Assembly (NCBI GenBank): GCA_021324655.1 | Contig: JAJPIP010000049.1 | Location: forward strand, 1-33,398 | From: Pseudomonadota bacterium | GTDB taxonomy: Bacteria; Chloroflexota; UBA5177 | Reading direction: 5' to 3' | DNA: 33,398 nucleotides | Shown here: piece after piece, positions 279 to 19,933 of the stretch | How the letters are laid out: each line of letters begins with the position of its first letter | How positions within the stretch are numbered: the stretch's first letter is position 1 | Program-made: the position numbers and the translations under genes | The notes under the pieces: model-generated | Database searches by the model: none | Told to the model about the DNA's origin: nothing | Seen by the model: only the letters and a program-made list of their open reading frames with translations

Positions 279-1130
279 CTACTTCCACTCCCGTTGCACG
301 GCCTGGAGCTGGCTGAGCTGCCAGGCCACGAACGAGCGATTCAGGGGCTGTGTTTCTGTGACGCCGACGACAGGGATGCCGGACTGGCCGGCGAGCGTCC
401 GCATCTGCGTCGTCGTGGGGTCGACGACCTGGCTGTTGTAGAAGAGCATCCGCACCGTGTCATGTCGCAGGGCGGTCTGGAACGCGGAGACCGACTGCGG
501 CGAGGGATCGGTCCCATCCATGATCGCTTTCTGGAAGCCAGAGTCGACCGAGGTCGTGCCGAGCGCGGCCAGCATGTAGCCGTAGACCGGCTCGGTGGCG
601 ATGACCCTGCTGCCGTTGGTTAGGCTGCGGACGCGAGCCACCTCGCGGTACACCGGTCGCAACGCGCGCAACCAGGCCGCCTTCCTCCGCGCGAAGTAGC
701 TCTTGTCGCGTGGCGCCAACCGCGAGAGATCATCGGCGATCACCGTTGCCTCTTTCGTCCAGCCGGCCGGGTCATACCAGATGTGGGGATTGTCGCCCGC
801 CGTCTTTCCGAGGTATTCCCCGACACTGAAGACCAACCGGCCCGACTGGGGTGAGGCGCTGAGCAGCTTATCCATCCAGGAGTCATACCCGATCCCGTTC
901 TTGATGACGAGCCGCGCCGTCGCCACCTGCTCGGCGGTCGACGCGCTTGCTTCGAACTCATGAGGGTCGGTGTTCGGGTTGGAGAGGAGGCTGACGACGT
1001 GCACGTCCTTCCCGCCGATTGCCGCGGCCATCGAGCCGTACTCATCCTCGGCCGCGACCACGCTGATCGTGCCGGGTGCTCCACGGCCCGCGGCCGGCCC
1101 GCATCCGGACAGAGCCACAAAGGCCGCCAT
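279..1130 (-). CDS. Zinc/manganese-type ABC transporter substrate-binding lipoprotein (ZnuA/TroA family)
   Basis: This is the extracytoplasmic metal-binding component of a cluster-9 ABC importer (283 aa from the ATG at 1130). A short hydrophobic N-terminus ends in the lipobox LSGC, so Cys10 is the likely lipid anchor. Candidate ligands are His57 (TDPHEFE), His116 (DNPHIWYDP), Glu180 (ATEPVYGYM) and an acidic residue near Glu259 (GVTET). The His-rich loop typical of Gram-negative ZnuA is absent, and Glu stands where many zinc proteins have the third His, so Zn versus Mn cannot be settled. Basic residues in frame just before the ATG (RRQAAWALL) look like the n-region of the signal peptide. The true start may therefore be slightly upstream, although no ATG/GTG/TTG is well placed. 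The frame stays open to 1730, but that part is repeat-rich and looks non-coding. The cognate permease and ATPase genes lie upstream, beyond a 633-bp gap. Confidence 0.85.
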   Translation of the reverse strand: MAAFVALSGCGPAAGRGAPGTISVVAAEDEYGSMAAAIGGKDVHVVSLLSNPNTDPHEFEASASTAEQVATARLVIKNGIGYDSWMDKLLSASPQSGRLVFSVGEYLGKTAGDNPHIWYDPAGWTKEATVIADDLSRLAPRDKSYFARRKAAWLRALRPVYREVARVRSLTNGSRVIATEPVYGYMLAALGTTSVDSGFQKAIMDGTDPSPQSVSAFQTALRHDTVRMLFYNSQVVDPTTTQMRTLAGQSGIPVVGVTETQPLNRSFVAWQLSQLQAVQREWK

Positions 1131-1763
1131 CAGCAGCGCCCACGCAGCCTGCCGGCGGCCGGTTCGCCGTCTCGAGGCAGCATCGCCGGCCCCGCCCGCG
1201 ACGTCTGATAGGGACCGGGTGCCGCCCCGCCGATGCGCATCACGGTAATGCCGGAACCGTGGGACGGCACCGCGGAGCCAATCGGTCGTAGGGCGGGGAC
1301 CGCGGAGCGTAGCGGAGCAGTGTCCCGCCGCCCGCATGCGGTGGGGGAAGATCACCAGGCGTTTCGGTCCGAGATGACGGGGCGGATGGCCACTGCTGAC
1401 GCGGGACGACCCGGCGAGGAGGTGTGGCCGATCTGGCGGGTATGAGTGACCATAGGCGTTGACCGGTAGGGTCCGGCTCCGCCGTGCCCGCCCTGGCCAC
1501 TCGTTCCACCAGGTTCGGATCGACAGACTTGCGGACCACCAGAGGCCGGATGGTCCAAACAGTGTGGCACGAGGGAGAAAGCGGGCACCGCGGAGCCGAC
1601 CCCTACCCCTGTTATGAGGATGGTCAATAGAAGCCGCTTCCCCGGGGTGCGAGGGCATCACCACGCTGTGCAGGACCAGCAGACCCAGCGGAGGGTCACT
1701 GCTGCGCGGGCACTCCCGACGAGAATTCAAGCCCGGTCTGCCTTCGGTGCCCGCTGCGCCGAT
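1131..1763. other. Repeat-rich intergenic region between permease and binding-protein genes
   Basis: This holds no supported gene. It contains the palindrome at 1465-1607 and repeated short motifs. The 13-mer GCACCGCGGAGCC occurs at 1267-1279 and again at 1585-1597, the core ACCGCGGAGC recurs at 1299-1308, and an inverted one-mismatch copy lies near 1473-1485. A bulged hairpin pairs the GGGCGGGGAC at 1291-1300 with a GTCCCGCC-containing segment near 1322-1333. A promoter for the binding-protein gene is expected here on the minus strand, but no clear -35/-10 pair was found. Confidence 0.55.
1465..1607. repeat. 143-bp palindromic element B
   Basis: The outer arms 1465-1491 and 1581-1607 are inverted repeats matching at 24 of 27 positions. 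Complementarity continues imperfectly inward: about 10 of 13 around 1498-1510 against 1562-1575 after a one-base shift, then weaker to the centre near 1536. The whole could fold as one long stem. It contains no open frame with recognisable content. Size and symmetry resemble a miniature inverted-repeat element, but target-site duplications were not established. Confidence 0.6.
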
Positions 1764-2618
1764 CTAGGCCGCGTCCGCGGTGGCGGGCTGCGCGGTGAGC
1801 CGTGTCGATCGGATGCCGATCACGCCGCGCCAGACCAGTAATCGGACCAGCAGGTAGGCCGCCACGGCCGCGGTGGCGATAAAGAAGCTTGCCGAGTAGC
1901 CGGTGTAGTACGCCATGATCAGCCCGAACCACGTCTCGAGGACGCCGAGGACCACGGCAATGCCCAGCGCCGGGTAGATCCGCGGCGTCAGGTACATGGC
2001 GGTGGCCGGCGGGGCGATGAGGAGGGCAAAGATCAGAAGCACGCCGACGACGAGCACCGCCTCGGAGACGGCGAGCGCGACGAGCAGCAGGAATAGAGCG
2101 GACAGCAGCCGGAGGGGAACACCACCGGCTTCGGCGGCGATCGGGTTGACCGACATATAGAGGAGGGGGCGGAAGATGACGCCGAGGCCGAGCAGAACGG
2201 CGATGCCGATGATGAGACTGGTGACGACCTCGGCCCGGCTGATCCCCATGATGGTCCCGAATAGGATGCTGAAGGCTTCCGATGCGTAGGCGGTGTAGAG
2301 CTGCAGGAAGAGAATCCCCAGCCCGAGGGCGAAGGCCAGGACGATGCCGATGGCGACGTCACGGCCCTCCAGCCGGTCGCCGAGGAGCCCCATGGCCAGA
2401 GCGGCCGACAGCGTGAAGGCGAGCAAACCCCAGAGCGGATCGATTCCGATCAGGACCGCTCCGGCTGCTCCCGAGAAACCGATATGGGAGAGGGCGTGCC
2501 CCGCGAACGCTACATGGCGCAGCACGACAAAGTAGCCGACGCAGGCCGCGACGGTCGCGATGATGGTGCCGGTAAGGAAGGCGTTCTGCATGAAGCTCCA
2601 CTGCAGAAACTCAGGCAT
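1764..2618 (-). CDS. Metal ABC transporter permease (ZnuB/TroC family)
   Basis: This is the membrane channel subunit of the metal importer (284 aa, PF00950 type), normally a homodimer with about eight helices. Hydrophobic segments cover most of the chain, and the family-like stretches VLRHVAFAGHALSHIGFSG near residues 32-50 and VGVLLIFALLIAPPATA near 192-208 are present. It starts 8 nt inside the end of the ATPase gene (stop at 2611), the usual coupled arrangement. The binding-protein gene of the same system follows only after 633 bp, which suggests insertion or a separate promoter. The substrate, Zn or Mn, is not decidable from this subunit. Confidence 0.9.
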   Translation of the reverse strand: MPEFLQWSFMQNAFLTGTIIATVAACVGYFVVLRHVAFAGHALSHIGFSGAAGAVLIGIDPLWGLLAFTLSAALAMGLLGDRLEGRDVAIGIVLAFALGLGILFLQLYTAYASEAFSILFGTIMGISRAEVVTSLIIGIAVLLGLGVIFRPLLYMSVNPIAAEAGGVPLRLLSALFLLLVALAVSEAVLVVGVLLIFALLIAPPATAMYLTPRIYPALGIAVVLGVLETWFGLIMAYYTGYSASFFIATAAVAAYLLVRLLVWRGVIGIRSTRLTAQPATADAA

Positions 2619-3435
2619 GACACTCTCCGCCCTCTTCCGCCGACGTGACCAGAATGTGGCCCTGCGCCCGGATGACGTCGACGGGAAAGCCGAAGAGGCG
2701 CGTCAGCACGTCGGTCTGAACGACCTCGTCCGGTGTTCCGATGACGCCCCGCCCATGCGCCAGGTAGATCACTTTGTCCATGGAGCCCAGCAGCGGATTG
2801 ACATCGTGAGCGACCAGGATCACGGCAATGTTCCGCTGACGGACCACAGAACAGACGATATTGACGACGTCGCGGCGGCTGCGAATGTCGAGATTGGCCA
2901 GCGGCTCGTCCAGCAGCAGCAAGTCCGGATCTCCGATCAGTGCCTGCGCCAGCATCAGGCGCTGCTGCTCGCCGCCGGATAGCCGTGCAATCGGAGAATC
3001 GGCATAGGCGTCGGCGCCCACCTCACGCAGCACCCGATTGACCTTCGCCGTCTTCTCCTGTGACGGCAGTGGCAGCCCCAGGCGAAACCCGTCGATACCC
3101 AGCGCGACCATGTCCCGGCCGCGCAGCGGTGAGGTTTCATCAAATGTCTGGTGCTGCGGTACGTAGCCGACCCGATGATTGCCCCGGGTCAGGGGGTGGC
3201 CGAAGAGGGAGACCGTGCCGTTGCTCGGCGGGACCAGGCCCAGGAGAAGGCGCAGTAAGGTGGTTTTGCCGGCGCCGTTTGGTCCGATCAACCCGACGAA
3301 GTCGCCGGGATAGATAGCAAAGCTCAGGTCGTTGAGCACCGGGCGGCCACCCAGCCGGACCGTCACGTTCTCCACTTCGACGATCGGGCGATCCTGGGCG
3401 AGTGCCGGTTGCTGCTGAGCTTCCCGCACTGCCAT
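2611..3435 (-). CDS. Metal ABC transporter ATP-binding protein (ZnuC/TroB family)
   Basis: This is the cytoplasmic ATPase that powers the metal importer. It has Walker A GPNGAGKTT, a Q-loop in YVPQHQTF, the signature LSGGEQQR, Walker B LLLLDEPLANLD and a switch His in LVAHDVN. A GTG 36 nt upstream (3471) is in frame, but the ATG at 3435 is preferred because AGGAGG lies 11 nt before it and the GTG has no Shine-Dalgarno sequence. From the ATG the protein is 274 aa, normal for the family. The 3' end overlaps the permease start by 8 nt. The gene is divergent from a Tat-exported phosphodiesterase. A perfect 5-5-5 inverted repeat lies upstream at 3476-3490 and may be the operator of a metal regulator. 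Confidence 0.9.
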   Translation of the reverse strand: MAVREAQQQPALAQDRPIVEVENVTVRLGGRPVLNDLSFAIYPGDFVGLIGPNGAGKTTLLRLLLGLVPPSNGTVSLFGHPLTRGNHRVGYVPQHQTFDETSPLRGRDMVALGIDGFRLGLPLPSQEKTAKVNRVLREVGADAYADSPIARLSGGEQQRLMLAQALIGDPDLLLLDEPLANLDIRSRRDVVNIVCSVVRQRNIAVILVAHDVNPLLGSMDKVIYLAHGRGVIGTPDEVVQTDVLTRLFGFPVDVIRAQGHILVTSAEEGGECHA

Positions 3436-3475
3436 CGCTCCCGATCCCTCCTGGCTGCCCGCCGGCCCCACCTAT

Positions 3476-3490
3476 TGATACACCATATCA
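3476..3490. promoter_or_regulatory. Candidate operator between metal importer and phosphodiesterase genes
   Basis: TGATA-CACCA-TATCA is a perfect inverted repeat of two 5-base arms around a 5-base spacer. It sits about 40 bp upstream of the importer ATPase start in the shared divergent region. AT-rich dyads in this position are typical of Zur, DtxR or MntR-type sites, but the sequence does not identify the regulator. Confidence 0.4.
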
Positions 3491-3509
3491 GTTACACTCA
3501 CTGGCGCGG

Positions 3510-3560
3510 ACGGCAGCGGAAAGTTAAGATTTTCTGGCTGCCGTGCCCGACAAGCGGCAG
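3510..3560 (+). promoter_or_regulatory. Leader with two mutually exclusive hairpins upstream of the first phosphodiesterase
   Basis: ACGGCAGC (3510-3517) pairs perfectly with GCTGCCGT (3537-3544), and an inner GAAA/TTTC pairing (3519-3522 with 3531-3534) extends the stem. The same CTGCCG (3538-3543) can instead pair with CGGCAG at 3555-3560. The two stems cannot form together, and the second ends about 26 nt before the start codon, close to the ribosome site. This is compatible with attenuation or translational control, or with coincidence in GC-rich DNA. Confidence 0.4.
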
Positions 3561-3585
3561 AATAGAGGGCCAGGGGGAACATTGC

Positions 3586-5241
3586 ATGCCTAAGCAGGAT
3601 CTGACGCCGGACGATCTTGAAGGTCTTTTTCGGCGGAGTGTCCTTTCACGCCGGCAGTTCATCGGCGGCCTGGCTGCCCTGGGGGTCACCGCCCCGAGCC
3701 TTGAATTGATGTTTGGCGCCGGCGCGGCGGAGGCGGCAGGGCCGCAGACGGAACCCCCGCGCTATGTGGTGATGATCACCATCGACGCGTTCCGCGCCGA
3801 CTACCAGCAGCTGGTCCCCATGCCGAACCTCCAGGCTCTCGCCAGGGCAGGTACCAGCTACTCCCGCGCCTGGGTCGGCCAGCTGGAGAGCGAGACCCCG
3901 ACGAGCCACACGACGCTCTCAACCGGCTCCATGCCGAAGCACGATGGAATCCTGGGTTTCGAATGGGCCGATCCCAAGTCGCACAAGAAAGTGCTGGATG
4001 GCTGGGCGCCGGGCGTTCTGGCCGGGAAGATGCAGGCGGATATCGCGGCCTCCGGCGCCGACACCCTGCCGGCTGCCTTCAAGCGCGCCAATTCGCATTC
4101 GGTCTCCGTTGCCATCTCCTCTGAGAAGGTGTACGCCGCCGACGGCCTGGGTGGGCCGGCGGCCGATTACATCCTGTATCACGAGCGAACCGGTCCTCAG
4201 AACCAGATCCTGATTCCGGCGGCGGTCCCGGGCCACACGCCTCCCGCTGAGTTCTTCAAGACGATGGGGTTGCACGAGCATCTCCCCATGAAGAACTTCA
4301 CCGATTGGGACTGGCTCTCCACCGAGCTGGCGATCAAGACCTTCGCCGCGTACAAACCCCAGCTCCTGATGGTCAATCTGCCCTCCGCCGATGTCTATGG
4401 TCATCCGTATGGCGGCCCCGCCGACCCGGCAATCTTCCGCCAGATCGTCGCCGGTGTCGACCGCAATATCGGCCGCATTGTGCAGGCCTATAAGAGCGCC
4501 GGACTCTACAATCAGACCCTGTTCGTCGTCGTCGGCGATCACGGCATGGTGCCGAATGACCGCATGGTCTATCCCGAGGTGGTGAAAGAGGTCGTGTACA
4601 AGGCCGGCGGGGAGTATATCTTCCACACCGGCGGGACGGCGGCCGACATCTATATCGCGAATGGATGGCACGCCCGGGCCGTGGCCGAAGCGCAGCTCCA
4701 GATTCCGGGTATCGCCGCGGCCTACTACAAGGTCGGCCATCCGGGGTCGTATGAGTACGTGCCGGCTCCCGGGCAGCGCATCGACGTGAATCTGGATGCC
4801 GCCTATCGCTACTTCCTGGATACGTTCGTCGGGCCGGACTCGCCGAATGTCGTGGCCGCGTTCCGCGAGAACACGATCGGCCGGAGCGAGACGGTTGCCT
4901 ACGGTGACCACGGCGGCATGAATTGGGGAGCGCAGCATGTGCCGCTCGTCATGGCGGGACCGGGCATCAAGGCCGGCCTGACCTCCAACTTCCCGGCGCG
5001 TCTGATGGACATCGCGCCGACGATTTTGCGCCTGATGAGCATTGCGCCGGCGCGCATGGATGGCACCGTCCTTGCCGATGCTGTGGTGGACGCGACGGCG
5101 GCGGAGGTGGTAGCGCAGAACACGCTCCTGACGCCGCTGACCGGCTACCAGAATGCGCTCATCACACAGTCCATCGACAACATTGAGGAAGACCATAAAA
5201 AGGGGCATTTGCCGCCACCATTGGCGCGCGCCCAGCCGTAA
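3586..5241 (+). CDS. Tat-exported alkaline phosphatase superfamily phosphodiesterase, paralogue 1
   Basis: A type I phosphodiesterase/nucleotide pyrophosphatase-like enzyme (PF01663 fold, 551 aa) predicted to act outside the membrane. The twin-arginine signal SRRQFIGGLAALG spans residues 21-33 and is followed by an Ala-rich cleavage region. The expected two-metal site is complete: Asp67 (ITIDAFR), nucleophile Thr104 (ETPTSHTTLSTG), Asp269 and His273 (DVYGH), Asp318 and His319 (GDHGM), and His442 (GDHGG). The start is the ATG at 3586 after GGGGGAAC; the frame is open further upstream but that part looks non-coding. The substrate cannot be read from the sequence; phosphodiesters, phosphonates or nucleotides are possible. 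It is divergent from the metal importer and followed by a paralogue 70 bp downstream on the same strand. Confidence 0.85.
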   Translation: MPKQDLTPDDLEGLFRRSVLSRRQFIGGLAALGVTAPSLELMFGAGAAEAAGPQTEPPRYVVMITIDAFRADYQQLVPMPNLQALARAGTSYSRAWVGQLESETPTSHTTLSTGSMPKHDGILGFEWADPKSHKKVLDGWAPGVLAGKMQADIAASGADTLPAAFKRANSHSVSVAISSEKVYAADGLGGPAADYILYHERTGPQNQILIPAAVPGHTPPAEFFKTMGLHEHLPMKNFTDWDWLSTELAIKTFAAYKPQLLMVNLPSADVYGHPYGGPADPAIFRQIVAGVDRNIGRIVQAYKSAGLYNQTLFVVVGDHGMVPNDRMVYPEVVKEVVYKAGGEYIFHTGGTAADIYIANGWHARAVAEAQLQIPGIAAAYYKVGHPGSYEYVPAPGQRIDVNLDAAYRYFLDTFVGPDSPNVVAAFRENTIGRSETVAYGDHGGMNWGAQHVPLVMAGPGIKAGLTSNFPARLMDIAPTILRLMSIAPARMDGTVLADAVVDATAAEVVAQNTLLTPLTGYQNALITQSIDNIEEDHKKGHLPPPLARAQP

Positions 5242-5301: not shown

Positions 5302-5311
5302 ATTGCATCTG

Positions 5312-7141
5312 ATGTCTGAGACGCCGACCACTATCACCGAATTGACCGACGAGTATCGAAAGGGCCACCTGAGCCGGAAGCAATTTCTGGGTGGCATGGC
5401 GGCGACGGGGCTCTCGGCAGCCGGTCTCTCCTCTCTCCTGCATCCGACGTTTGCGCGGGCCGACGTGTCCTCCAGTGCCGGCGCGGCCGAGTATGTCTGT
5501 CTCATCGTGCTGGACGGCGGCCGCCCGGATTACATCACCAACCGCCTTCACGAGCTGCCCAACATCCGCAATTTCATCAAGAACGGACGCTGGTACAACA
5601 ACGCCTGGGTGGGCAGCCTGATGAGCATCACCCCTCCCGATCACGCCGTCATCGGGACCGGCTCGCTGCCGCGCGACAACGGCGGGCTGGTCAACTGGGA
5701 GTGGGCGAACCGCCATACGGGCAAGATGTCGCTGTCCCTGCAGGATCTCTCCAACTACAACAACGAGTGGGCGTTCAATCTCATTCGTGAGTCGGGCACG
5801 CCGACGCTGGCGGGGGAGATCCGCAAGAAGTATCCGAATGATCTGGTGATCGCTGGGAGCGGGGCGCACTTCCACGCGGCTGGCCCGCTGGGTGGTCCCG
5901 ATGCCTCCTGGATCTACTGGTTCCAGCACGTGGGGAACGAATGGATCCCACGCTCGATGGGGCCCAACCCCGTGCCGAAAGAGATCCTCAACGATCCCTC
6001 GCTGCGTGCCAAGGTGCCGCCCACCAGCGACACTACCGTTCCCAAGTTCTACTCGCCGCTCAATCTGGGGCAGCAGGATACCCTCGTCATCGACACCGCG
6101 ATCAGGGCACTGCAGAGGTACCGGCCGCGGGCCATTCTCCTCAACCTTCCCGAGACCGACGTGGTCGGACACTGGTCGCTGGAATGGAAGCGCGACGAGG
6201 GGATCCTCTACCGCGCCTTTGACAGGGCGTTGGGCCGGCTCATCGCGGCGTACAAGCAGGAGGGCATCTTCGACAAGACGCTCTTCGTGGTGACGGCGGA
6301 CCACGGCATGATTCAGTCGGTCCACCGCGTCCTCGACCGCGAAGCCGTCCTCAAGCAGATCAAGACCGAACTGGGAGAGAACTCGATCATTCTCACCAAT
6401 GGCGGGGGTGGCGGCGGTCCGACCATGACCTCGATCTGGCTCAAGAATCCCACCCACAGCCGGCGGATGGCGACGCTGATCTGGGAGAAGCACTACGACA
6501 ACGTCTCGGCGATCTACTACCGGAACGGCACCAAGTACCATCCTGTCGGTATCGAAGACGGCTCCGCCGCTCTGGAGAAGGCGTACACCTATCTGCTGGA
6601 GACGGAAGGGACCAACGGCGAGGACATCGCTATTCTGCTGCGGGAGAACTCCCGCAACAGCGGCTTGCCCCGCATGCTGGGCCGTCACGGCGGCGCCGAC
6701 TGGGGCTCGCAGATGGTGACGCTGATGATGATGGGCCCGGGCGTGAAAGTCGGCAAGTCGAACGCACCGGCGCGGCTGGTGGACATTGCACCGACCGTCG
6801 AGCGCTTCATGGGGATGACGCCCAATGCGCGCGACGGCGTCGTCCTGGCTGATGCCTTCCAGACGCCGCACCCGGACGACGTGCCGCCGTTCAAGTCCAC
6901 CATGGCCCAACTGGCCCCGATGGTCGCGGCGTTGCAGAGACGGGCGGCCAGAGACATCAAGCTAGCGGCCGAGGGACAGCTTCCTAACTTCATCCCCGCC
7001 AATGAGATCGTCATCCACTGGAAGCGCCGCATTGCCGTGACGGCGGCCGCCGCGGCCGTGCTGGTGGGTGCCGCCGGGTTTCTCGCCTGGGCGGTCAAGG
7101 AAGTGCGCCGCCAGGGCACGGGCCTGAAGTGGACGGCCTGA
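5312..7141 (+). CDS. Membrane-anchored alkaline phosphatase superfamily phosphodiesterase, paralogue 2
   Basis: A second PF01663-type enzyme (609 aa) with the full set of expected active-site residues: Asp68 (LIVLDGGRPDY), Thr107 (SITPPDHAVIGTG), Asp283 and His287 (DVVGH), Asp330 and His331 (ADHGM), and His459 (GRHGG). The N-terminal signal resembles a Tat motif but carries SRKQFLGG, with Lys in place of the second Arg. Unlike its neighbours it ends in a hydrophobic helix (about residues 574-594) flanked by KRR and KEVRR, so it is probably held in the membrane at its C-terminus with the catalytic domain outside. A Gly-rich loop (GGGGGGP) lies near residue 370. It follows paralogue 1 by 70 bp and probably shares its transcript. 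Confidence 0.83.
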   Translation: MSETPTTITELTDEYRKGHLSRKQFLGGMAATGLSAAGLSSLLHPTFARADVSSSAGAAEYVCLIVLDGGRPDYITNRLHELPNIRNFIKNGRWYNNAWVGSLMSITPPDHAVIGTGSLPRDNGGLVNWEWANRHTGKMSLSLQDLSNYNNEWAFNLIRESGTPTLAGEIRKKYPNDLVIAGSGAHFHAAGPLGGPDASWIYWFQHVGNEWIPRSMGPNPVPKEILNDPSLRAKVPPTSDTTVPKFYSPLNLGQQDTLVIDTAIRALQRYRPRAILLNLPETDVVGHWSLEWKRDEGILYRAFDRALGRLIAAYKQEGIFDKTLFVVTADHGMIQSVHRVLDREAVLKQIKTELGENSIILTNGGGGGGPTMTSIWLKNPTHSRRMATLIWEKHYDNVSAIYYRNGTKYHPVGIEDGSAALEKAYTYLLETEGTNGEDIAILLRENSRNSGLPRMLGRHGGADWGSQMVTLMMMGPGVKVGKSNAPARLVDIAPTVERFMGMTPNARDGVVLADAFQTPHPDDVPPFKSTMAQLAPMVAALQRRAARDIKLAAEGQLPNFIPANEIVIHWKRRIAVTAAAAAVLVGAAGFLAWAVKEVRRQGTGLKWTA

Positions 7142-7200: not shown

Positions 7201-8880
7201 CTATGCTCCGGCGGATAGCTCCAGATGAGACTCCGCCTGCATGGCCGCCACCACCGGCACCAACTGATTCGACATCTGCGCCTGGCGCCACGGGGCGTCG
7301 GGCGGAGGAGACGTTAGCGCGTCCGCGAGAACCACGCCCTGCATGCCGTACGGTGTGATTCCCATCGCTTGCAGCGCCGTCGGTGCCACGTCGATGAGCC
7401 GCGCCGGAGCGGTCGAGACAGCGCCGGAGCGGAAACCGGGGCCGGAGAAGACGAGCGGCAGGTGCTGAGACTGCCAGCTGGTCCCGCCGTGATCTGCCTT
7501 CCATCCGGATTGCCCGCCGGGTTCGCATCCCGCTCCTTCTGTGAAGACGGCCACGACATCGGGGCCGTTCGGTCCGGCGAACGTAGAAAGGAGGTATTGG
7601 TTCGCACGCTCCACGGCCGAATCGTGCAGCAGGGAGGAACCACTGACGCGGCGATAGGGCCGGCCAACCGTCGTCAGATCCACCGCATACACCGCCTGAA
7701 TGAGGGGATTTTTGAGATTGGCGATGTTGAGCGCGGCGTCACCGGCTTTCGACGAGTCTTGCAGCCAATAGCATGCGCTGGTGTTGTAGCTCGACGTCAC
7801 GATCGGTGTACCCGCTTTCTCGACCGCTTTGTCGAGGAGGCCTTCGTCGATCTTGCCGTGGAGCGGCATCATGCCGTGATCGGCCAACAGAACGAAGAGG
7901 GTTCGGTCCAGCACACCGGCGCGTCGGAAGGCATCTTGTAGCAGACCGAGGTCGTGGTCAAAGCCTTGCATCAAGGTTGTGACCTGACCCATGTCGATCG
8001 TCCCGCCGTCGACGTGACCGAGCGGCCAGTCGAACTCCGCCAGATTGATGAGCGTGACCTGCTGGTGCATCCGATTGAAGGTGTCGATGGCCAGCCGCAT
8101 GGTGAGATGGTTCTCGACGCCGAGGGGGATGTTGTGATTGGGGACGGCGAGGTGTGGCGCCGTCAGCACGCCGGCCGGAGGCTCGTGCGCCGGCACCGCC
8201 GTGGGCACAAATTGTCCGTTCGCCGTGCCGTAGTAATAGAGGATGGCGTCCGCATCCGGACCGCCGAGCGCATCGGCCGCGTAGTACTTGTGGCCGGAGA
8301 GAGCGACGACCTTGGAGCCCGTGTATTGGGTATGCACCAGGCTGGCGATGGTCGGGACACCGGCCTGACTGATGATTGCTTCCATCGCCCCGTCGTTGAT
8401 CTGGCTCGGGTCGAAGAGGTCGACTTTCTGCTTTTGCAGATCGCCCCACCAGAAATTAACGATGCCGTGACGGCTAGGATTGGATCCGGTCGCGATCGTG
8501 GCGTGCCCGGGGGGCGTCTCCGACTCCAGAATGCCGGCAAAGGCATTGGAGTAGGAGATGCCGTTGCGGATCAGCCGCCGCACGTTCGGCATGTTCGGAA
8601 CGCCGAGATACTCCGGCGTGGCGCCGTCCAGCACGATCAGCACCAGATAATCGGCGCCGTTCATGCTGGTCGCACCGGTCATGGAGTGGGTCAGCATGCC
8701 ACCGACGAGAGCCATGCCGAGCCCTCCGCCGGCTGCCTGCAGTAATTGCCGGCGGCTAACGGGAGACTGGAGCCACGAATTCTCGTCGCGTCGCGGCTGC
8801 GGCGTCGGGCGGGCGACGGCGCGCACGCGCCGCGCATCGTCGTGGCGGACCGTGCGGTGCGGAGAGCATCTCTCACACAT
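7201..8880 (-). CDS. Tat-exported alkaline phosphatase superfamily phosphodiesterase, paralogue 3
   Basis: A third PF01663-type enzyme (559 aa), convergent with paralogue 2. The twin-arginine motif SRRQLLQAAGGG is at residues 42-53, after an unusually long polar N-terminus rich in Arg. No good ribosome site precedes the ATG at 8880, so the true start may lie downstream. Active-site residues are Asp85 (LIVLDGATPEY), Thr122 (ETPPGHATIATG), Asp284 and His289 (DWPLGH), Asp334 and His335 (ADHGM), and His464 (ADHGG). The DWPLGH motif has four residues between Asp and His, where paralogues 1 and 2 have three. No C-terminal anchor is seen. Substrate unknown. Confidence 0.83.
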   Translation of the reverse strand: MCERCSPHRTVRHDDARRVRAVARPTPQPRRDENSWLQSPVSRRQLLQAAGGGLGMALVGGMLTHSMTGATSMNGADYLVLIVLDGATPEYLGVPNMPNVRRLIRNGISYSNAFAGILESETPPGHATIATGSNPSRHGIVNFWWGDLQKQKVDLFDPSQINDGAMEAIISQAGVPTIASLVHTQYTGSKVVALSGHKYYAADALGGPDADAILYYYGTANGQFVPTAVPAHEPPAGVLTAPHLAVPNHNIPLGVENHLTMRLAIDTFNRMHQQVTLINLAEFDWPLGHVDGGTIDMGQVTTLMQGFDHDLGLLQDAFRRAGVLDRTLFVLLADHGMMPLHGKIDEGLLDKAVEKAGTPIVTSSYNTSACYWLQDSSKAGDAALNIANLKNPLIQAVYAVDLTTVGRPYRRVSGSSLLHDSAVERANQYLLSTFAGPNGPDVVAVFTEGAGCEPGGQSGWKADHGGTSWQSQHLPLVFSGPGFRSGAVSTAPARLIDVAPTALQAMGITPYGMQGVVLADALTSPPPDAPWRQAQMSNQLVPVVAAMQAESHLELSAGA

Positions 8881-9044: not shown

Positions 9045-10127
9045 TCACGCCGGATCCGTCGCTAACGTCCCGCGTAATCTCTCGGCGAGCGCGCCAATCT
9101 CATCCCAGCCGCCACGCGGCGCCTCCGGCCACTCATCCACGTGGACGCCCCAGAACTCCGTCGGCGCTCCGGGATAGCGGGGAACGATGTGGACGTGGAG
9201 ATGCGGGACGTGATGGCCCATGACGAACACGTAGATGTGATCCGCTGCCTCGCTTTCTTTAAGGGCGCGGCCCACCCGTGTCACCATGACGCCCACCGCG
9301 GCTGCCTCTCCGTCGGTCAGATCGGCGACGCCCGGCGCGTGGCGCTTCGGTTCGATGACGATATGGCCCAGGTACGTGCCCAACTCCCCTCCCACGTGCG
9401 TCACGGCCAGGAGATCATCCTCGTAGATCATGCCCCCGGGGATCGGTTCCTCACCGCGATGCTTCCGGCAGACGAAACAGTCCGGACTCACCGGATTCTC
9501 ACCGGATGGATTGCCGTCTCTCGCGTCACCGCGTGCCACGCGGGATTCCTCATTCGCCACGCACGAACCGTCTGTGCTGCGTTCTAGATCCCGGATCGCG
9601 TCCTGCACGAAGGCGCTCTTCCGTTGAGCGTACTCGACGGTGTCCGTGACGCCGGAGGCGATGATGGCACGCTTCTCGGCGACGTAGGCCTCGCGAAGCG
9701 CGGGATCGGCGCGCAGACGGTCGCGGAAAGCGCGATTGAGCCCGACCTCCGGACAGTCGGCAGCGATGACGTGCGCATGGATGCGGAAGATGTCTCCCTC
9801 GTGCGCAATGGCCCCGATGCGCATCGGGCGATCTTCCGGGAAGGGGTTTCGGCCCCCCTGCGGCTGGAAACCGAGGCGGCCCAGAACGTCCTTGACGGCA
9901 TCCAACCGGTGCGGCGGATAGATGATCTGCAGATCGATCACGCCCTTACCGTCGCACGGCACCGCGGTGCTGCCGATGTGCTCGACCTGTGAATCGGGGA
10001 GCCAGCGCTCGATGAGCCAGGCGAGGCGCGCGGCGACATCCGATGCGCGTGGGTCCGGTGGAAGACATCGTGGACCGCGGACGGCGCCGGAAGCGTCGTA
10101 GGGAAGGATCGGCCGTCCGTCTACCAC
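9045..10127 (-). CDS. GrpB-family nucleotidyltransferase-like / HIT hydrolase fusion
   Basis: A 360-aa two-domain protein. Residues about 5-182 match the GrpB/UPF0157 family of nucleotidyltransferase fold (VEHIGSTAVP, then GKGVIDLQI). After a polar linker, residues about 215-355 form a HIT domain with a CxxC pair (Cys217, Cys220) and the histidine triad His309-Leu-His311-Val-His313 preceded by His306. HIT proteins hydrolyse or transfer nucleotidyl groups on small nucleotides such as Ap4A or AMP conjugates; GrpB-family activity is poorly known. The fusion suggests paired nucleotide transfer and removal chemistry, which is inference. The GTG start lies inside the 3' end of the methyltransferase gene (7-nt overlap), so the two are probably translationally coupled. 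The frame is continuous across both domains. Confidence 0.82.
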   Translation of the reverse strand: MVDGRPILPYDASGAVRGPRCLPPDPRASDVAARLAWLIERWLPDSQVEHIGSTAVPCDGKGVIDLQIIYPPHRLDAVKDVLGRLGFQPQGGRNPFPEDRPMRIGAIAHEGDIFRIHAHVIAADCPEVGLNRAFRDRLRADPALREAYVAEKRAIIASGVTDTVEYAQRKSAFVQDAIRDLERSTDGSCVANEESRVARGDARDGNPSGENPVSPDCFVCRKHRGEEPIPGGMIYEDDLLAVTHVGGELGTYLGHIVIEPKRHAPGVADLTDGEAAAVGVMVTRVGRALKESEAADHIYVFVMGHHVPHLHVHIVPRYPGAPTEFWGVHVDEWPEAPRGGWDEIGALAERLRGTLATDPA

Positions 10128-10903: not shown

Positions 10904-11077
10904 GTCATCAACTATTCTCCCCTGACCTTCTATCGGTCAAGGACCATTTTCCCTCTCCGAGGGAGGACCGTCAGACGGAAAAGAAAAGTTCAGACACCGG
11001 CAAAGGGAGGGTAAGCTCTTCTCTTTACTCTCGGGATAGGCCGCACTGGCCACTTTCAGCTGAAGGAGTCAACTCAC
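10904..11077. other. Divergent intergenic region, methyltransferase / secreted protein
   Basis: This must hold the promoters of both neighbours. A small hairpin, TCCCTC (10950-10955) with GAGGGA (10959-10964), is present. AAGGAG lies about 9 nt before the plus-strand ATG at 11078. No clear -35/-10 pair was identified. Confidence 0.4.
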
Positions 11078-16294: not shown

Positions 16295-19200
16295 TTACAC
16301 CGCCGCGCGGTTGTCCAGCGCCCCCCGCACACGCTTCGTATGTGGCTGCGCCCCCAGTCGCTCAAAGATCGTCAGTGCCGCCTCCAGATCGCGCCGGCGC
16401 TCAGGGGAAGACGGATCCAGGGCGCTGCGCCGCAGATAGATCCCAGCCTGTTCGTAAGGATGAGGTATTCGCTCCGCCAGCGCAAGTGCCTCGTCCAGGA
16501 GCCGGTGCGCCGCGTCTCTGTCGCCCGACTCGACCGCAATGGCAGCCGCCACCGAGAGCCAGCCCAACCGAGCCATCTCGTTCGCCTGACCCGTTGCCTG
16601 GTCCAGCCCGCGCCCCGCGATCTCCGCCGCGGCCGCGCGATTGCCGGCCGCGAGGTCGGCTTCCGCTACGATCTGCATGGCCCGATGGTCGAGCGTCGTC
16701 TCGAAGACCGGCGTCTGGAGTAAGGGATTCAGACGGTCCAGGGCCCGTTCCGGCTCCCCGTCCCAGAGATCCCAGGCGGCGAGGGGAATCTGCAGATAGG
16801 GCAGCAAGCCCACCCGGCCGCTGCGCTCAGCGATGACGAACGGCTCTTCCAGATACCGCGAGGCGCGCTCACTGTCCCCAAGACGCAGATAATGCTCGCC
16901 GAGCGTCATGAGAGTCCACGCCGAAAAGTGAGAGTAGCTCATGGAGCGGACGAGATCGACCGCCTGTTCCCAGTGGCTCTGAGCGGCGGGCCAATCACCG
17001 AGCACAAACGCGGCCTGCCCCAGGCGTCTCACGGCCTCCGCCTCTCCCGCGCGATCACCCCGGCTCCGGGCCACCTCAAGTGCCCGCGCGAACATCGCCT
17101 GCGCGCCGCCGGGCCTCCCCTGTGCCAGATCGATGTCGCCTCGCCACAGGAGCGCCTGCATGAAGACGGCGCCGTCACCGCCGGCTTCGGCCTGCGGGAT
17201 CACGTCGCCGAGGACCCGCCCAGCCTCGTCCAGCCGTCCGATCCCGCCCAGCGCCAGGCCATAGCGGACGGTGGCCTGCACCACCAGCCGATCACTGTCG
17301 TGCGGGCGCGCCAGCTCAACCGCCCGATAGGAGGCCGTAAGAGCGTCCTCGAAGCGGTTCAGATGATAGAGCGGATCGACCAACGCCATATAGACGTCGA
17401 TAAGACCGTGGGGAAGATCCGCATCGTCGGCGTCCTCGTCGAAACGGGCCAGCATGCTCTGGAGACGCGTCACTGCGTCCTCCGGCGCCCCACGCAGGAA
17501 GTGCACGTCGCCGATCTGTGCGGCGACCTGCGCTTCGCTGTCCACATCCCCCAGGTCGCGGTAGAGCCGTGCCGCCGTCTCGAGTTCCTCCAGTGCCTCG
17601 TCATACCACGCGATGATGCGGAAGATGCCGCCCAGCTTGGCGGCCAATCGGGCCGCGCTCGCGGCATCGCCACCGGCCTGCCCCAGCCGGGTACGAGCGG
17701 TTTCGTAGTGGTCCACCGCGCCCTGGTTGGCATACACCTCCGCTGCCCGGTCGCCGGCGCGCTCGAGCCAGAGGGCGGCATCGGCATGCCGGTCGGTCTG
17801 TGCCAGGTGGTAGGCAACCGTTTCGACGGCGTCCTCCGCCAGGTGTAGCGCGATCATGGCGTCGGCGATCGACTCATGCAGTTCCCTGCGCCGAGCGGCG
17901 AGCAGCGTGCTATACGCCACGTCGCGCATTGTCACATGCTTGAACGCATAGTCGGATTCGCTCCCCGGCGGAAGGACCACGATCTCGCTTCGGGTGAGCG
18001 CGGTGAGGTGTTCACGCGTGATGTGCTCGGCAGTTCCCATCACGGCGGTCAGCAGGTCAGCACTGAAGGTGCGGCCGATGACGCTCGCCGTCTGCACGAG
18101 GCTTCGGAGCGTGCCGGGAAGACGGTCGAGACGGGCCAGCACGATCTCGGTGAGGGTCGAGGGGAGGTGCGCGGCGGTCGCGGCTACCAGAACGGCGCGG
18201 CCGTTCTCATACGCGATCCCGCCTTCATCCTGCAGCGTATTCAGCAACTCCTCGACGAAGAAGGGATTGCCTCCCGACCGGTCGATGATATAGCGCTCGA
18301 GGTCGGGTGCCAGCGCCGCGCCCTCCAACACACTTTCGGCCAGCGCGATCGTCTCCGGTTGTGTCAGGGGACGGAGGACGATCTTCTCCACCCAGGCCCA
18401 GGCATCCCAGGGCGGGGTCCACGGCGGACGATAGGCGGCGAGGACCAGCAGCGGCAGCCCCACGACATCGCACAGCACCTCGGCCAGCACCTCGGCGCTC
18501 GCGCTGTCCATCCCGTGGGCATCTTCCAGGATCATCACCGACGGGGCGCGCTGCGCGAGACCCATAAAAAGTAAGCGCAGGCTCTTGACGAGGGTCTGGC
18601 GGCGGGCCTGGGGGCCGGCGTCGGTCACCGATGACCGGATATCGGCGAGGCCCAGTACCTCCCCGAGCACGTCGGCGGCTGTGCTGCGCGTTTCATCATC
18701 CGCCGGGGCGAGCAAGTCGTCCAGTATCGCCGTCAGATGTAGGCGCAAGACGGCCGGGTCCTCGCCGTCCCGTACCGCAAGGACGGCACGGAGCAGTTCG
18801 GCCACCGTCCCCAGACTGATGCTCCCGCCATGACTGGAGCAGCGGACCCAGAAGACACGATCGGACGCGAAGCGTTGCGCAGCGTCGGCCAGTAGCCGGC
18901 TCTTGCCGAATCCGGCCTCCGCCAGCAGCGCCACCAATTGCCCATCGCCGGTTTGCGCCCGCTCCCAGGCCCGCTGCAGCGCGCCCAACTCGTGCTCGCG
19001 CCCGACCAGGGCCACCGGATGCCGCGCTCCGGCCTCCTGCCCCTGCGTCTCGACCGTTCCCAGTACGGCATAGGACGCCACGGCCTGCGCCTTCCCTTTA
19101 AGCGTCAGGTCATGACGCTCACCAAACACGACGGAACGCCGCGTCAGGCGCATCGTATCGAGACCGACCATAATCCCGCCGGGCTCGGCCGCCGTCTGCA

Positions 19201-19933
19201 GTCGGGCGGCAGTATTGATGACGTCTCCCGTGATGGAGTAGTCTTTCCGCCCGCCGGCGTCCAGCATCCCGCTGACGGCCTCACCGGTATTGACGCCGAC
19301 CCGGATCGCCAGCTCGACGCCGAAATCCCGCCGGACCTCACGTCGCAGCGGGATGAGAGCTGATTGCATGGCCAGCGCACACAGGACGGCCCGTTCGGCA
19401 TCATCGCCCTGGGCGAGGGGCACGCCGAAGAGCGCGAGGATGGCGTCGCCGGCGAACTTCTCCACGACGCCGCCGAATCGAGCGATCTCTCCGCTCATGC
19501 GCTCAAAGTAGGTCGTCTGGATGGCGCGCACGCCCTCCGCGTCGAGCCGTTCCGTCAGCGGCGTGAAGCCGACGAGATCGCAGAAGAGCGCGGTCACCAG
19601 CCGGCGCTCTTCTCGCGCCGTCTCATCACGCGTGGAGAGCGGCGCAGCCGGCCGCCGTTCGCCGGGCAGCGACACACCCGGACCGGCCGCCGCGCCGCAG
19701 GCGCCGCAGAACGGCTTGTTCGGCGTGACGGCCGAGCCGCAGGCAGCGCACCACGCTTGCAGCGGGGATCCGCAATCGTCACAGAAGCGGTTGCTGCTGT
19801 CCTGGATGCTTTGACAGTGTGGGCAGAGGGTGGGCAGGCGGGTCCCGCAATCGCCACAGAAGCGTTTCCCGGCCGGGCTGGTTTCACCACAAGCCCGGCA
19901 GATGAGGTGGCTAATTTCCGCGCGCGCTGCCAT
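16295..19933 (-). CDS. Zinc-ribbon / class III adenylate cyclase / AAA ATPase / TPR regulator
   Basis: A 1212-aa cytoplasmic protein. Three successive zinc ribbons open it (Cys12/15/26/29, Cys37/40/51/54, Cys62/65/76/79). A class III nucleotide cyclase domain follows at about residues 108-290 with metal ligands Asp119 (FCDLVGFT) and Asp163 (FAGDAIL) and transition-state residues Asn240 and Arg244 (GDVINTAARLQ), so it should be active. Next is an AAA/STAND-like ATPase with Lys344 in Walker A (AEAGFGKS, with Ala where Gly is usual) and Asp471 in Walker B (VMILEDAHGMD). From about residue 700 to the end are TPR-like repeats. Such proteins are common in Chloroflexota and Actinobacteria and probably couple partner binding to cyclic nucleotide synthesis; the ligand is unknown. 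The ribosome site before the ATG is weak. Confidence 0.87.
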   Translation of the reverse strand: MAARAEISHLICRACGETSPAGKRFCGDCGTRLPTLCPHCQSIQDSSNRFCDDCGSPLQAWCAACGSAVTPNKPFCGACGAAAGPGVSLPGERRPAAPLSTRDETAREERRLVTALFCDLVGFTPLTERLDAEGVRAIQTTYFERMSGEIARFGGVVEKFAGDAILALFGVPLAQGDDAERAVLCALAMQSALIPLRREVRRDFGVELAIRVGVNTGEAVSGMLDAGGRKDYSITGDVINTAARLQTAAEPGGIMVGLDTMRLTRRSVVFGERHDLTLKGKAQAVASYAVLGTVETQGQEAGARHPVALVGREHELGALQRAWERAQTGDGQLVALLAEAGFGKSRLLADAAQRFASDRVFWVRCSSHGGSISLGTVAELLRAVLAVRDGEDPAVLRLHLTAILDDLLAPADDETRSTAADVLGEVLGLADIRSSVTDAGPQARRQTLVKSLRLLFMGLAQRAPSVMILEDAHGMDSASAEVLAEVLCDVVGLPLLVLAAYRPPWTPPWDAWAWVEKIVLRPLTQPETIALAESVLEGAALAPDLERYIIDRSGGNPFFVEELLNTLQDEGGIAYENGRAVLVAATAAHLPSTLTEIVLARLDRLPGTLRSLVQTASVIGRTFSADLLTAVMGTAEHITREHLTALTRSEIVVLPPGSESDYAFKHVTMRDVAYSTLLAARRRELHESIADAMIALHLAEDAVETVAYHLAQTDRHADAALWLERAGDRAAEVYANQGAVDHYETARTRLGQAGGDAASAARLAAKLGGIFRIIAWYDEALEELETAARLYRDLGDVDSEAQVAAQIGDVHFLRGAPEDAVTRLQSMLARFDEDADDADLPHGLIDVYMALVDPLYHLNRFEDALTASYRAVELARPHDSDRLVVQATVRYGLALGGIGRLDEAGRVLGDVIPQAEAGGDGAVFMQALLWRGDIDLAQGRPGGAQAMFARALEVARSRGDRAGEAEAVRRLGQAAFVLGDWPAAQSHWEQAVDLVRSMSYSHFSAWTLMTLGEHYLRLGDSERASRYLEEPFVIAERSGRVGLLPYLQIPLAAWDLWDGEPERALDRLNPLLQTPVFETTLDHRAMQIVAEADLAAGNRAAAAEIAGRGLDQATGQANEMARLGWLSVAAAIAVESGDRDAAHRLLDEALALAERIPHPYEQAGIYLRRSALDPSSPERRRDLEAALTIFERLGAQPHTKRVRGALDNRAAV

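Follow-up and report, generated by a model that had tools for sequence, protein, structure and literature searches.

A one-frame GrpB-HIT protein, most likely a recent and lineage-specific tether of two common proteins

A GrpB domain and a histidine triad (HIT) domain are joined in a single uninterrupted reading frame in the window, i.e., the whole stretch of 33,398 nucleotides that was analysed, from an uncultured bacterium (Table 1). The join is confirmed in the sequence at hand. The open reading frame and the Pfam matches agree on it (PF04229, GrpB, 83.7 bits against a cut-off of 25.5, 2e-23; PF01230, HIT, 40.8 bits against a cut-off of 21.5, 3.6e-10), and the initial annotation had correctly described one continuous frame with the triad and the CxxC pair of the HIT domain intact. 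The explanation that we favor, with somewhat better than even confidence, is a lineage-specific tethered two-domain protein that combines a working HIT nucleotide hydrolase with a ligand-binding GrpB domain. Most likely two common soluble proteins were tethered recently in this lineage: the genes of GrpB and HIT would have become neighbors, head to tail, and the intervening stop codon would have been lost. Such a fusion would tether GrpB and HIT without implying a joint reaction.

Table 1. Coordinates of the fusion, its parts and its neighbors in the window, and of the second fusion found in the phylum.
Feature	Position	Strand	Remarks
GrpB-HIT fusion ORF	9045..10127	(-)	GTG start, 360 aa, zero internal stops
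GrpB domain, aa 5-187	9567..10115	(-)	Pfam match aa 23-178
Linker, aa 188-209	9501..9566	(-)	pLDDT mostly <50
HIT domain, aa 210-360	9048..9500	(-)	Pfam match aa 232-319; CxxC 217-220; His triad 309-313
Possible independent HIT start, GTG = codon 213	9489..9491	(-)	Putative; GGTGA few bases upstream
Class I SAM methyltransferase ORF, 260 aa	10121..10903	(-)	ORF list and Pfam
Sigma-70-like promoter match, 5' of methyltransferase	10911..10940	(-)	9/12; consensus match only
Second GrpB-HIT fusion, genome G150	L060:2891-3931	(-)	347-aa frame; another family of the phylum

In the product, GrpB would be N-terminal and a HIT domain of the zinc type C-terminal, with some 25–30 residues of disordered linker between them. 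The AlphaFold2 model, for which the input was an alignment of 35 rows, predicts two confident domains (mean pLDDT 89.7, pTM 0.60) and a disordered linker, residues 188–209 being the sole long stretch with pLDDT below 50. In the HIT part the triad H309-L-H311-V-H313 and C217-x-x-C220 are both intact, and the positions conserved among 45 HIT sequences (C217 in 43; C220, H263, H309 and H311 in 44 each) are all kept. We take the CxxC pair, H263 and H309 to be the zinc site residues of zinc-binding HIT proteins. When predicted models were compared with VIA-align 2, the HIT part matched the zinc-bound HIT protein 3o0m with a Z of 16.3 (the zinc being taken from the title of the entry) and the Rv2613c-type Ap4A phosphorylase 3ano with a Z of 15.0. 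In HIT proteins the middle histidine of the triad is the nucleophile that frees the nucleotide from a conjugate by attack on its phosphate; with these residues kept, His311 would presumably act in the same way. The host genome has two other HIT places, with three HIT genes in all.

The GrpB part, compared by the same method, matched the GrpB protein 2nrk (Z 17.3, rmsd 2.9, 159 residues aligned), the CoaE-GrpB protein 6n39 (Z 17.1) and, with a Z of about 10, DNA polymerase lambda, which has the nucleotidyltransferase (NTase) fold. A profile of the subfamily finds 2nrk at an E of 1.1e-18, and PMC7288161 lists GrpB among the proteins with an NTase core. In a set of 111 GrpB sequences that includes the window's own, H50, G52, S53 and D65 are each held by 110, H119 by 103, R135 by 107, D136 by 99, and Y148 and K152 by 109; the window's GrpB keeps H50, GST at 52–54, K61, D65, H117, H119, R135-D136, Y148, K152, Y166 and K170. 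The motif of a nucleotidyltransferase comprises, as we assume here, hG[GS], [DE]h[DE] and one further acid. The window's GrpB departs from that of an active enzyme: GS and D65 are present, position 67, that of the second acid, is Q, and H117 and H119 occupy the presumed place of the third acid. Over the 111 sequences position 67 is acidic in three, and positions 117 and 119 in the strand 112–122, third-acid candidates read by eye and not by superposition, are acidic in one and none. From the alignment, the pocket of the family is strongly kept but lacks the usual acid triad, unlike that of a standard nucleotidyltransferase, which narrows the choice of assays.

That the family is without the canonical acid pair weakens the case for nucleotidyl transfer by GrpB. 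It is likelier that the domain would bind a small-molecule or nucleotide ligand, or would support its partner as in CoaE. The initial annotation had proposed that a nucleotide adduct is made and removed, for which we found no support; in its fuller form, GrpB would make and HIT would remove the adduct on one substrate, perhaps together with the methyltransferase encoded upstream. An NTase fold lying beside a nucleotide hydrolase fold and the existence of a second, divergent GrpB-HIT fusion are in line with this idea, but the canonical NTase acids are nearly absent over the 111 sequences, the partners of GrpB are very diverse, with HIT in the locus for only 3 of 109 GrpB domains (window included), and the methyltransferase is unlinked elsewhere, so that we regard it as very unlikely. 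No enzymatic activity assigned to GrpB was found in the literature searched.

The junction between the two domains has a weak coding character. Linker codons 185–212 have a GC3 of 0.61 and score -0.07 bits per codon (the two domains score +0.28 and +0.30), and 3.1% of the 24-codon windows in the other genes of the window score as low. At the local base composition, 28 stop-free codons would occur by chance with a P of about 0.49. These values would suit an arrangement of two proteins in one open frame, in which HIT is made mostly from its own internal GTG at 9491 and the linker is the old spacer, stop-free by chance. The GGTGA ahead of this GTG, and the N-terminus that would result, M-S-P-D-C-F-V-C, which resembles those of standalone HIT proteins (in several relatives they start a few residues ahead of the CxxC), point the same way. 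However, with no stop between GrpB and HIT any translation of GrpB would yield some read-through product, the read frame outscores the other two across the linker as well, and the second fusion (L060) likewise has no stop and shows an identical gap of 114 nt between the domain matches. We therefore judge an internal start to be an unlikely main source of the HIT domain. The linker of L060 is also low-scoring (-0.04, vs. 0.16 and 0.11 in its domains). A short terminator-like hairpin is found at the junction (9495–9481), such sites being at chance level (2 found, mean 1.3).

The beginning of the frame is also unusual. The codon usage of the read frame is coding-like over codons ~34–178 and ~226–346, but in the region of the first 30 codons another frame outscores it by 0.59–0.65 bits per codon (windows starting at codons 3–11), and an off-frame advantage of at least 0.6 was seen in none of 3220 overlapping windows from five other genes. 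The exact N-terminus of the fusion is therefore uncertain. A two-frame composite, hand-picked after inspection, scored 68.6 vs. 56.4 bits on the N-terminal profile of the relatives, and this better fit suggests compensated indels near the N-terminus, genuine or erroneous. In addition, the window's GrpB is without the Gly after P57 that 99 of the 111 GrpB sequences hold. The odd first ~30 codons together with the lost Gly could mean a decaying gene or sequence errors. The corresponding explanation for the join itself is that an assembly indel or recent decay brought two separate genes into one frame; the composite and the odd start would fit it, as would a +1-frame stop at codon 180, close to where the GrpB relatives end. 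We consider this explanation quite improbable, given that the coding-like usage extends over most of both domains, the core motifs of both are intact, and many other long frames in the window are uninterrupted (as judged from the ORF list and the Pfam matches only).

We compared the fusion with its relatives in a set of 61 genomes, of which 42 gave some match, and both domains in one frame were found in the window's own genome only, among the matches listed. We found that close relatives have separate genes, the observation that the initial annotation had named as counting against its reading. The closest GrpB among the matches listed, that of G257, is 63% identical and lies in a 226-aa frame without HIT, and the next two, both from the family of the host, are in a 204-aa frame without HIT (G003, 51% identical) and fused to two GNAT domains (G002, 60% identical). 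Likewise, the closest HIT domains (L036, L033, L032, L004 and L037, 57–61% identical) have no GrpB, a more distant one (L071) belongs to a HIT-DUF1706-rhodanese frame, and in the loci examined zero relatives of the window's HIT subfamily were joined to GrpB. One scan of genome contigs for the fusion returned three loci, all with HIT and without GrpB, and the 47 genomes of the class of G257 gave zero further matches over both domains at 1e-25. Two adjoining HIT genes in tandem, relatives of the window's HIT, were seen at L063:2847-3839(-) and L062:1414-2564(+). Since the same fusion was found in zero relatives, among the matches listed, there is no basis to infer selection for the fused state, and since the nearest relatives keep the domains apart, the fusion is a weak clue to the job of GrpB. 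In the trees, with moderate support and several forks unresolved, the window's GrpB falls with members of its own family and G257, and its HIT among sequences of other families and a Rossellomorea. We infer that the GrpB-HIT pairing arose in the lineage of the host. No paper naming both GrpB and histidine triad was found, in a search that left subscription journals mostly outside, and the architecture may have been published.

GrpB is widespread (of a 400-genome sample of the phylum, 130 have PF04229), and the host genome has two further copies. The initial annotation had recommended a search for other GrpB-HIT fusions and their neighbors. Among the matches listed for the 400 genomes, one other stop-free match over both domains appeared, that of G150; the scan scored at most the five best candidates per genome, and further fusions may therefore be missed. 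Like the window's fusion, L060 has GrpB followed by HIT, although the two are only 27% (GrpB) and 35% (HIT) identical over the aligned parts. Its HIT domain stays below the Pfam cut-off of 21.5 (21.4 bits as a part, 19.2 in the whole protein), reaches 90 bits on a profile built from other HIT sequences with itself left out, and matches solved HIT proteins (3ksv, 9e-6). A HIT homologue of L060 in another genome (G400), 67% identical, stands without GrpB. One could read the two fusions as signs that GrpB and HIT are a recurrent functional pair, joined on two or more independent occasions; the non-standard Asp-His site of GrpB would then bind a nucleotide or attach it to a small molecule, and HIT would remove it. 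We give this proposal very little credence.

The methyltransferase ORF exceeds the Pfam cut-offs for Methyltransf_11 and others and overlaps the fusion ORF by 7 nt, as had been annotated. From this overlap, the fusion is probably co-transcribed and translationally coupled with it. Sigma-70-like promoter matches numbered one, vs. a mean of 0.3 in shuffles. A homologue of the methyltransferase at 1e-25 or better is present in 11 of the 61 relatives, and when eight homologue loci (window included) were checked for about 1.5 kb on each side, GrpB or HIT lay beside it in the window only. The only methyltransferase match at the other GrpB loci was a weak one (1e-6) at L123. A conserved operon with the methyltransferase was thus rejected, as the homologues sit elsewhere and the adjacency is not kept.

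Elsewhere in the window there are three adjacent genes of the type I phosphodiesterase/nucleotide pyrophosphatase family (3409–5241(+), 5303–7141(+) and 7201–8880(-)), with N-termini that look twin-arginine-like by eye; a ZnuA-like binding protein with an ABC-3 permease and an ABC ATPase (279–3471(-)), probably an operon for the uptake of zinc or metal; and a single protein with a double zinc ribbon, an adenylate/guanylate cyclase catalytic domain, an AAA ATPase and TPR repeats (16295–19933(-)). A link to defence or phages was also rejected: the PADLOC matches of HIT to ThsC (30.1 bits) and of the methyltransferase to mad2 (72.2 bits) were taken as shared domain families, and PADLOC gave no match for the phosphodiesterase gene. 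Phage records gave zero matches to the query at 1e-5, PHROGs only families of unknown function (the window protein reached 2.4e-8 at best, the GrpB of L060 1.4e-33), and of 15 plasmid records matched none covered 80% of the query.

Fusion partners are among the few clues to the role of GrpB. We collected 109 distinct GrpB domains from the fetched loci, 91 of them flanked by 1 kb or more on both sides; these loci were picked by score and long open frame, not at random, and partner counts are therefore not frequencies. The three with HIT in the locus are the window and L060, both fused, and L092, where HIT lies about 1.07 kb off on the same strand; HIT genes are otherwise rare near GrpB. These three, window included, stand against about 0.5 expected at 109 loci by a rough arithmetic that rests on about three HIT genes per genome, as in the host. 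An N-terminal GrpB joined to PurK, i.e., 5-(carboxyamino)imidazole ribonucleotide synthase, was found at nine distinct loci, all in one family (f21): L046/L067, L048, L050, L052, L053, L054, L057, L058 and L059. Two of them were scanned with Pfam and all nine compared by blastp, with at least 57% identity to the first. The GrpB-PurK architecture recurs and, as a clue to GrpB, is better than the fusion with HIT; no paper naming both GrpB and purK was found, again with subscription journals mostly outside the search. Other one-frame partners are an LCM methyltransferase, an ADK-like kinase and GNAT (L069:2278-3789(-), L073:1456-2619(-), L066:4382-5950(+), L089:1709-3079(+) and L051:919-2064(-)), with GNAT fused to GrpB in three proteins and HIT in two. 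Tandem GrpB-GrpB frames occur at L085:1633-2784(-) and L086:1400-2770(+), and a nitrilase (CN_hydrolase)-GrpB frame at L084:483-1976(+). The latter, NitFhit and GrpB-HIT form a triangle of fusions among nitrilase, HIT and GrpB. In these loci GrpB behaves as a promiscuous fusion domain, joined to PurK, GNAT, nitrilase, methyltransferase, ADK-like kinase or HIT, and with partners so diverse the GrpB-HIT pair is one among many. The fusion had been expected to help assign a role to GrpB; it does supply a partner, but with at least six kinds of partner here, HIT is a weak clue.

A close precedent is the mycobacterial CoaE-GrpB (UPF0157) dephospho-CoA kinase (6n39), in which GrpB and a nucleotide-handling enzyme also share one chain; there GrpB is C-terminal to a kinase, whereas in the window it is N-terminal to HIT. 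PMC2765170 reports that the UPF0157 domain of this enzyme is necessary for the folding of the kinase and is not a general chaperone. The GrpB of Enterococcus faecalis (2nrk) has the same fold as the window's GrpB in a standalone chain, and the M. smegmatis HIT (3o0m) and the Rv2613c-type protein (3ano) share the HIT fold in matched chains without GrpB. In NitFhit (1ems), as here, HIT is joined to another small-molecule enzyme, the partner there being a nitrilase.
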